Shown here: positions 15,283 through 18,213 of the stretch, in pieces | How positions within the stretch are numbered: the stretch's first letter is position 1 | Layout of the letters: every line of letters begins with the position of its first letter | Virus record (IMG/VR): IMGVR_UViG_3300042453_005575 | Span: 1-64,000 of that record | Length of the DNA: 64,000 bases | Origin: a virus | Direction: 5' to 3' (one strand) | Notes under the pieces: generated by a model | Databases searched by the model: none | The model's input: only the letters and a program-made list of their open reading frames with translations | What the model was told of the DNA's origin: nothing | Made by a program: the position numbers and the translations under genes

Positions 15283-15319
15283 ATTTTTTGGTATAATATA
15301 TTGAACGGCACTATTGTGC
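15283..15319 (+). promoter_or_regulatory. Shared RNA-gene promoter, copy 1 (drives tmRNA), with 5' hairpin
   Basis: Extended -10 box TTGGTATAAT (TATAAT 15292-15297) preceded by a T-tract. Eleven bases beyond it lies GCAC-TATT-GTGC (15308-15319), which can form a hairpin at the very 5' end of the transcript. The same roughly 40-base block recurs before the giant RNA at 16929, with GCAC/GTGC changed to GCAT/ATGC so that pairing is kept. Expected transcript start is about 15303; the leader to 15360 would be removed by RNase P. Confidence 0.65.
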
Positions 15320-15360: not shown

Positions 15361-15786
15361 GGGGGTATACTGGCTTCGATACGTAGTCCGTGTATCATAA
15401 AACAGCCGAGGATGATTCGTTGGCCTCGTAAAAATCGAATCAAAAACTAAACGCCAATATTGAAATGGCTCCTTCTCTCGCAGAAGCTGACGCTATCCTC
15501 GAAGCCACCGGCTTTGTTGATTCCGAGCAGCTGATGGCCGCCTGACCGGCGCCATCGCTTAAGAAGGCACAGGACCGAGGATTGAGAGTAACCTCGCGGC
15601 TGCGAAACGCCGTAAAATCTCTCAAAGATGATGGTAAACCATTCCGCTCGAATATGCGTTAATTATTCCTCGACTCATGTTAGGTCTCCAGCCGACCGTA
15701 TATGAGTTTAAATAAATAAGCTGGTAAGCTGTAGCTTTTATGCTATGTTAATTACGTAGACAGGGGTTCGACTCCCCTTACCTCCA
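15361..15786 (+). ncRNA. ssrA: tmRNA with an unusually long tag reading frame
   Basis: The 5' end GGGGGTA pairs with TACCTCC at 15779-15785 as a seven-pair acceptor stem (one G.U), followed by discriminator A; CCA is not encoded. The conserved D-loop-like ACTGGCTTCGA follows the 5' end, and a T arm AGGGG-TTCGACT-CCCCT precedes the 3' end. The tag frame follows CTAAAC, the usual context of the resume codon: GCC at 15453, then 30 codons to TGA at 15543-15545, beginning Ala-Asn-Ile-Glu-Met and ending Leu-Met-Ala-Ala. That hydrophobic Ala-Ala end is a typical ClpXP-type degron, but 30 residues is much longer than the about ten of E. coli. It rescues stalled ribosomes and tags their products; SmpB is not in the window and is presumably host-supplied. 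Confidence 0.93.
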
Positions 15787-15794
15787 CATTTTAC

Positions 15795-15866
15795 TGCAGG
15801 GTCGACAAGGGGTTAAGTCACTGCGCTCATAACGCAGCATCGAGGGTTCGAGTCCCTCCCCTGCTA
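15795..15866 (+). tRNA. tRNA-Met(CAT), initiator-like
   Basis: Cloverleaf with anticodon loop CTCATAA on stem CTGCG/CGCAG, T arm GAGGG-TTCGAGT-CCCTC and D stem GAC/GTC. Position 1:72 is a T:T mismatch and the second D-stem pair is A11:U24; both are initiator features in bacteria. The anticodon stem lacks the three consecutive G:C pairs of the same orientation usual for initiators. CCA is not encoded. It lies eight bases after the tmRNA and is probably cut from the same precursor. Confidence 0.88.
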
Positions 15867-16928: not shown

Positions 16929-16966
16929 ATTTTTTTGGTATAATATATTGAACGGCATTATTATGC
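16929..16966 (+). promoter_or_regulatory. Shared RNA-gene promoter, copy 2 (drives the giant ncRNA), with 5' hairpin
   Basis: Nearly identical to the tmRNA promoter block at 15283: T-tract, TTGGTATAAT (TATAAT 16939-16944), then ATATTGAACGGCA. The hairpin arms are GCAT (16955-16958) and ATGC (16963-16966) around the same TATT loop. Compared with copy 1, one C-to-T and one G-to-A change compensate each other. Expected transcript start is about 16950. Confidence 0.65.
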
Positions 16967-18145
16967 TTGTTTTTAATTTTGGCCGTGTGCGGCCATAAGA
17001 TAACCTCGGTAACGAGAACAAAGTGGATCGCCATCACCGTGGCGATCTGCGGGGGTCCTCGACCCCTCCGAGCACACAAGGAGGTAATCATTATTTCTGC
17101 CTGTTGAGGGTTTTAAAGGAATAATGCTTTCCGGTTGAGACCCGGAAGGTGAGTGCTAAAAACACAATAAGTAAACCTTTAGCTGATATGCGAGCAACTA
17201 GACTGGTAATCTAGGTATCGCGTTCAGCAGCTTAGAAGTTTTCGCTGAGAAAGGCAGAGGAAACTTCAAAACCGTGCTAACCAGGCACAGGATCAGTAGC
17301 GCATCAATTCTCTCAAAAGGAGAGTTGGCGGAACCCGCGAGCACTGATTCAGGATCTCAGGTGATATCTAGCCTTCTAACAGGGGCATATAGAAACCTAA
17401 AAAGGAAAGCCTCGGGGCTTCTGCAGTGAAAGATGACTTCGTCCCAGGAAAAGCCTGGGGTTTATCGGCTCCCTAAAGCCGGTATTAATAGAGGTTAGGA
17501 TAATCTTTGGAACCTGTAGCAGGGTTTGGAGGGTGCGCAGCCTTCACAGAGAGGAACTAGCGAACAACTGTGGATGAAACCTTGATTTGGGGTAACAAAT
17601 CGTCATTGCTAGATACGTTGCAAAATAACGTGGATAAAACGGAGAATCAATATACTTCGTCAAAGCCTAGTAGTTGTAGCTGTAATCTCAGGCTGCATTA
17701 ATTTAACTCGACTTGGCGAGTATAAACAGGATGTAGGCCAAGAGCGGCAGGCTATATTTTTTACATAGCTTGCAATTCGGCAAGTGTGCTGCAGCATACT
17801 TTACCTCGACCGGGCTAGGCTCTAAGCGTTTGTGGAAACTTAGAATAAGTATCTGAGGTCAGGTCTCCACAGACCTGAGGCGAGATACAAACTAGTTATA
17901 CAGAGTAGACCTCGCAATCCGGCTTGCTTTGGTTGTTGCCTCTACTCATGATTTATAATTTTGGAGGATATCGAAAGAAATACATTCTATGTTTAAACAT
18001 AAAAGTTCATATACCTCCATTTCTTTTTGTGTATCTTTTTTGGTACGCAAAACCACTGGCCCAGCAGTGAAGTGCTGCAATCTGGGACAAATTTTTAGCT
18101 ATTTACTGGTTTAGCGGTATAACCTCGAACCAGGTAAATTTAATT
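16950..18145 (+). ncRNA. Giant ornate structured noncoding RNA, GOLLD/ROOL-class candidate
   Basis: About 1.2 kb without a plausible gene but with dense hairpins. Examples are CTCG-GTAA-CGAG (17005-17016, a GNRA tetraloop) and GATCGCCA/TGGCGATC (17026-17033 with 17040-17047). GTGTGC/GCACAC (16985-16990 with 17072-17077) closes a multi-helix junction. Further helices are CCCAGG/CCTGGG (17443-17459), TCAGGTCT/AGACCTGA with a CCAC loop (17859-17878) and TTTACTGGTT paired with AACCAGGTAAA (18102-18138). Size, phage context, and closeness to tRNA and tmRNA fit the known giant phage RNAs GOLLD and ROOL. I cannot recall their consensus well enough to assign one. No rRNA, RNase P or intron-core signature was recognised. 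Boundaries are approximate, from the promoter and the last helix. Confidence 0.72.
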
Positions 18146-18168: not shown

Positions 18169-18213
18169 ATGAGCAACAAACTAAATTCAAACAAAGACTG
18201 GGAGGAACTCTAA
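18169..18213 (+). CDS. 14-residue leader peptide, coupled to the next gene
   Basis: ATG at 18169 opens 14 codons (MSNKLNSNKDWEEL) ending in TAA at 18211-18213, whose last A is the first base of the next ATG. The TAATG overlap would let ribosomes finishing the short peptide restart on the 92-residue gene. GGGAGGA inside the peptide serves as Shine-Dalgarno for the next gene. Whether the peptide itself matters is unknown. Confidence 0.4.
   Translation: MSNKLNSNKDWEEL

Follow-up and report, generated by a model that had tools for sequence, protein, structure and literature searches.

A GOLLD RNA with both of its domains, a pistol self-cleaving ribozyme and a further structured tail lie in tandem between positions 16950 and 18145 of the window, the 64,000-nucleotide stretch of DNA analysed here (positions 1 to 64,000 of IMG/VR record IMGVR_UViG_3300042453_005575). 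The locus probably specifies a GOLLD precursor, from which the pistol cuts GOLLD away from the tail. The virus record is 90 kb long and encodes a phage terminase, in line with the phage or prophage setting of GOLLD, which is often close to tRNA genes.

The first-pass annotation had described the region as one gene-free, helix-dense RNA of 1.2 kb close to tmRNA and tRNA genes. Its gene-free and helix-dense character is confirmed, as is the proximity of both genes, which lie about 1.1 kb upstream. The single RNA is replaced by three modules (Table 1), and the pistol was absent from that account. The ORF list contains no plus-strand ORF longer than 51 aa within 16967-18114, and a coding region at 16950-18145 is ruled out, with no ORF of size and no protein family. 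Compared with dinucleotide shuffles, folding energies correspond to z scores of -6.0 for 16970-17290, -2.3 for 17289-17700 and -4.7 for 17790-18145. The same test gives -1.8 to +0.7 for four controls, of which three are coding and one is mostly coding.

Table 1 Features of the GOLLD-pistol locus and its upstream neighbors (window coordinates).
Feature	Position	Strand	Remark
Promoter, second exact copy	15287-15302	+	upstream of tmRNA
tmRNA	15361-15789	+	~1.1 kb upstream of giant RNA
tRNA-Met	15795-15866	+	~1.1 kb upstream of giant RNA
Extended -10 promoter TTTGGTATAATATATT	16934-16949	+	drives giant RNA; predicted start near 16951
5' leader hairpin GCAU-UAUU-AUGC	16955-16966	+	compensatory change relative to tmRNA copy
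Module 1: GOLLD RNA, both domains	~16980-17694	+	~715 nt
GOLLD 5' domain	16980-17288	+	descriptor signature; z -6.0; outside Rfam model
GOLLD 5' domain P1, UGGCC/GGCCA	16980-16995	+	descriptor
GNRA hairpin CUCG-GUAA-CGAG	17005-17016	+	GOLLD 5' domain signature
GOLLD conserved 3' domain, RF02032	17289-17694	+	150.0 bits
Module 2: pistol self-cleaving ribozyme	17706-17778	+	starts 12 nt past GOLLD
Pistol P1, ACUCG/CGAGU	17706-17710/17717-17721	+	RF02679
Pistol pseudoknot CUUGG/CCAAG, five pairs	17712-17716/17738-17742	+	RF02679
Pistol P2, GGAU/AUUC	17729-17732/17775-17778	+	separate register analysis
Pistol P3	17748-17754/17766-17772	+	RF02679
Predicted pistol cleavage site	near 17773-17774	+	inferred
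Module 3: structured tail	17779 to ~18100-18145	+	structured by z score; no Rfam match

A full-length GOLLD RNA and its promoter

The conserved 3' domain matches RF02032 at exactly the gathering score of 150 bits in a region-restricted Rfam search (E 1.2e-41) and exceeds the cut-off in a search of its own genome (E 1.8e-43). The whole-window Rfam scan at gathering does not list it. Identity to the Rfam GOLLD consensus is 51.5%. Compared with the 98 consensus pairs, 35 are the same, 9 are changed on one side and 41 on both, 9 are non-canonical and 4 are gapped. Thus 90% of the pairs are kept, against 36-45% when the partners are slid by 1-3 columns; the counts come from an alignment fitted to the RF02032 model and hence lean towards it. 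The GOLLD 3' motif GUAAUCUCAG is also present.

The first-pass annotation had seen the profile of GOLLD and ROOL here, and only the GOLLD half of this assignment stands. The model search it proposed, covering GOLLD, ROOL and other large RNAs, returned GOLLD, and no ROOL covariance model matches at gathering or with E values up to 5. Group I/II introns and rRNA are rejected, with no gathering-level match in the Rfam search; a plastid intron model gives only a chance-level minus-strand fragment (E 2.7). Covariation is seen relative to the Rfam consensus, so that none of the findings named beforehand as fatal to a giant RNA (an intron or rRNA match, a protein family, a lack of covariation) applies. 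GOLLD was found in 0 of 51 records from phosphoesterase relatives (14 loci) and terminase relatives (37 loci), and there is therefore no close homologue to align; the best segments of the terminase relatives are 76-86% identical.

Since the Rfam model comprises the 3' domain only, we wrote a descriptor for the 5' domain. It consists of a P1 hairpin with a loop that pairs downstream, followed by [AG]AUAA, a GNRA hairpin and AAAG. The descriptor matches 80 of 105 GOLLD sequences, compared with 9 of 1494 control windows. It replaced a MAFFT alignment of full-length GOLLDs, in which the 5' domain of this locus was misplaced. Here, the match spans 16980-17077 and therefore extends GOLLD to ~16980-17694. 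The P1 loop GUGUGC (16985-16990) is predicted to form a pseudoknot with GCACAC (17072-17077). The GNRA-type loop noted earlier is present as GUAA at 17009-17012, and AAAG follows the hairpin at 17020-17023. Judged by its sequence, 16980-17694 is a real, full-length GOLLD, and thus an already-known kind of RNA.

The promoter proposed in the first-pass annotation is also confirmed. The extended -10 element TGGTATAAT (16936-16944) lies inside TTTGGTATAATATATT, which has three exact copies in the 90-kb record (15287, 16934 and 70738), while the reversed-pattern control has none. One-mismatch copies in terminase relatives are located upstream of small genes and/or tmRNA. The leader hairpin on the tmRNA side reads GCAC-UAUU-GUGC, with one pair changed on both sides; the remaining leader is identical. 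Because the promoter core is common to both RNAs, this arrangement suggests that GOLLD may be expressed alongside the translation-rescue RNA. The phage tmRNA itself (15361-15787) encodes a long tag of 30 residues, ANIEMAPSLAEADAILEATGFVDSEQLMAA. Long and seemingly similar tags occur in the tmRNAs of terminase relatives.

The pistol and the structured tail

The pistol matches RF02679 with 40.9 bits, against a gathering score of 34.5. The copy retains an intact P1, pseudoknot between the P1 loop and the P2/P3 junction, A-rich strand, AGCG core and P3. Rfam does not align P2 or the cleavage junction. Leaving one base unpaired before P3 gives a P2 with 4 of 4 pairs and a two-nucleotide junction, CA. 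The same parser, applied to 118 viral pistols, shows mostly 2-nt junctions, a length that its scoring favors; GU is the most frequent of several dinucleotides, and 3 of 4 P2 pairs are typical. According to Harris et al. (PMC4604425), pistols strictly conserve the length of this junction but not its letters. Over 45-54 nt, the enzyme strand shares 87-91% identity with pistols of other phages. The score is lower than those of the copies at GOLLD 5' ends (67.6-74.7 bits). The copy at 17706-17778 is probably active, as far as its letters tell, if not certainly so.

The tail matches no Rfam family in the region-restricted search. Blastn finds no relatives of it past the pistol part, giving only chance-level matches in named phages, and detects no relative in named phages that covers the whole of 16950-18145. 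The next gene begins at 18213; the tail is its 5' leader or else an RNA of its own. A hairpin at the end of the tail (18099-18140) carries GGUUUAGCGGUAUAACC and CUCGAACC and is reminiscent of tRNA D- and T-arms that lack an anticodon arm.

Pistols at GOLLD boundaries and at other viral loci

We compared the locus with 119 further GOLLD loci taken from IMG/VR. A pistol scan of 90 GOLLD-bearing records yields three copies above the cut-off besides the present one. Two are located at GOLLD 5' ends (L038 and L013/L177), and one is found elsewhere in its contig, within long gene-free DNA (L073). Targeted scans added L293, L300 and L302. The pistol directly adjoins GOLLD P1 in L300 and in L013/L177, and lies ~60 nt ahead of P1 in L038/L293/L302, which form one lineage. 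GOLLDs with a 5' pistol thus occur in three lineages other than the present one. In L298/L299/L301, GOLLD precedes the same downstream gene as in L300/L302/L293, and inspection reveals terminator- and promoter-like DNA at the place of the pistol. Because of this replacement, promoter and pistol look interchangeable as putative means of making the GOLLD 5' end.

At the 3' side, the flanks of other phages' GOLLDs carry terminator-like DNA, tRNAs or genes. A tRNA starts at most 40 nt past the 3' motif in 15 of 106 GOLLDs, corresponding to the place of the pistol here. In IMG/VR and GTDB, which may lack records very close to the present one, the search patterns revealed no second GOLLD with a 3' pistol; relaxing the pattern gave 52 matches, none of which adjoins GOLLD or a pistol signature. 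The terminase-relative set (37 loci) contains sub-threshold pistol matches only. Hammerheads near GOLLD were rejected, with a single descriptor match 1.9 kb away and no excess above the control.

Several GOLLD loci show additional features. Six have stretches 3' of GOLLD (L023, L071, L081, L093, L119 and L025), several of them tRNA-like, with acceptor- and T-arm-like pairing. These are not called as tRNAs; a called tRNA follows 120-310 nt on. The 90-kb contig of L073 combines GOLLD, the pistol, a near-threshold hatchet (48.5 of 51 bits) and kilobases of gene-poor, repeat-like DNA. Its two ends, L178 and L179, are near-identical.

Pistols of other viral loci have surroundings of their own. In six related loci (L182, L193, L199, L215, L239 and L252), the pistol is followed by ~190 nt, located ~40-240 nt past it, and then a tRNA-like gene. 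In the members that were read, the ~190 nt have an apparent closing stem GUCUCGC/GCGAGAC. This stretch may be an undescribed RNA with a pistol on one side and a tRNA on the other. Elsewhere (L284:6283, L212, L210, L229, L211, L185 and others), long DNA without an 80-aa ORF often follows the pistol, up to 1.9 kb. Large-RNA Rfam families, tmRNA excepted, have no match in 17 such loci. Further loci contain two or three pistols each on one strand, 0.4-2.2 kb apart: L194/L242 (12519, 13723), L222 (12554, 14056), L230 (10862, 13066), L207, L282 and L366. With this spacing, neighboring pistols could excise the RNA between them, giving it 5'-OH and cyclic-phosphate ends. Several pistols in L359-L366 are placed about 20-40 nt ahead of an ATG, as would suit cleavage of polycistronic phage transcripts between their genes.

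A model for GOLLD end formation

The GOLLD identity with its two domains, the promoter, the pistol match and the repeated occurrence of pistols at GOLLD boundaries are computational results; transcription, cleavage, cage assembly and a function in infection we infer along the following lines. Transcription from the promoter at 16934, with the same core as that of tmRNA, would give a precursor comprising full-length GOLLD, the pistol and the structured tail, which extends in the direction of the genes beginning at 18213. GOLLD would fold, and a pistol cut near 17773/17774 would detach it from both the tail and these genes. When a pistol cleaves, the upstream fragment ends in a 2',3'-cyclic phosphate and the downstream fragment begins with a 5'-OH (PMC4604425). 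The freed GOLLD would accordingly retain the ribozyme and a cyclic phosphate at its 3' end, and the tail would start with a 5'-OH. By analogy with its family, GOLLD would presumably then assemble into a homo-oligomeric cage.

Several observations speak against this model: the 3' domain scores exactly at the cut-off, the pistol is weaker than those at GOLLD 5' ends, its P2 and junction need a one-base change of register, no other GOLLD in IMG/VR or GTDB was found with a 3' pistol, and the 51 records of terminase and phosphoesterase relatives contain no GOLLD. An ordinary GOLLD followed by a dead pistol remnant is an alternative that we take seriously and hold to be unlikely. In that case, read-through, termination or host RNases would define the GOLLD end, and the tail would be no more than a structured leader of the next gene. 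The low score fits a remnant, being the lowest of the GOLLD-linked copies, as do the failure of Rfam to align P2 and the junction and the unique 3' position. A remnant would not be expected to keep P1, pseudoknot, A-rich strand, AGCG core and P3 intact, to allow a fully paired P2 in one register, or to preserve an enzyme strand this close to the pistols of other phages.

The unity of the 1.2-kb region could also be real, with the pistol fold serving as a structural domain and the tail as an extra cage domain of one giant RNA. In its favor, the tail shows pronounced structure (z -4.7), and the minimum-energy fold unites it with the pistol in one multibranched domain. Such a 3' domain is present in no other GOLLD examined, however, and we consider this reading improbable. 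The new giant-RNA class that the first-pass annotation allowed for, merely resembling GOLLD, is disfavored and has next to no credibility. While the Rfam score exactly at the cut-off and the 51.5% identity would suit it, E values of 1e-41 to 1e-43, the 5' signature unused by Rfam and the GUAAUCUCAG motif all point to GOLLD itself. A precursor cut by its own pistol is thus the reading we prefer.

We know of no function for the RNA-only cages of GOLLD, and the literature searched holds no account of how GOLLD ends are made. The pistols that precede GOLLD in other phages suggest how giant RNAs get their ends. The occurrence of a self-cleaving ribozyme beside GOLLD in four phage lineages provides an answer that can be tested; it links the natural role of the pistol with giant RNAs and suggests that defined ends are required by cage RNAs. 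We propose tentatively, as a conjecture we would not yet rely on, that pistols are dedicated phage end-processing devices for giant RNAs, that promoter, pistol and tRNA can replace one another in making GOLLD ends, and that the tail released here is an undescribed structured phage RNA.

GOLLD and pistol are each known separately, and the new part is provisionally the neighboring pistol together with the recurring pistol-GOLLD pairing. The open-access papers searched, other than the first descriptions of GOLLD and of pistol, do not mention the two together, and the novelty is provisional to that extent. The GOLLD env-38 cage was solved as a 14-mer, and the parts of that report consulted describe tRNAs in linkers and expression that is linked to lysis and rises then, and name no ribozyme beside GOLLD (PMC12286853). 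The present RNA resembles RF02032/env-38 in its 3' domain, the P1, pseudoknot and GNRA hairpin of the 5' domain, its phage origin and the neighboring tRNA-Met and tmRNA. It differs in the promoter core held in common with tmRNA and in its 3' side, where a terminator or tRNA gives way to a pistol, starting 12 nt past GOLLD, and then a structured tail. ROOL is likewise a large, ornate, cage-forming phage RNA near tRNAs (PMC12286853), but its model does not match this locus. The pistol shares P1, the P1-loop pseudoknot, the conserved enzyme strand and P3 with RF02679 (PMC4604425), and departs from it in the register of junction and P2 and in its place at the GOLLD 3' edge. L300, L177 and L038/L293/L302 have both RNA elements side by side on one strand, as here. 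Their order is reversed: the pistol comes first, and its cleavage would set the 5' end of GOLLD.
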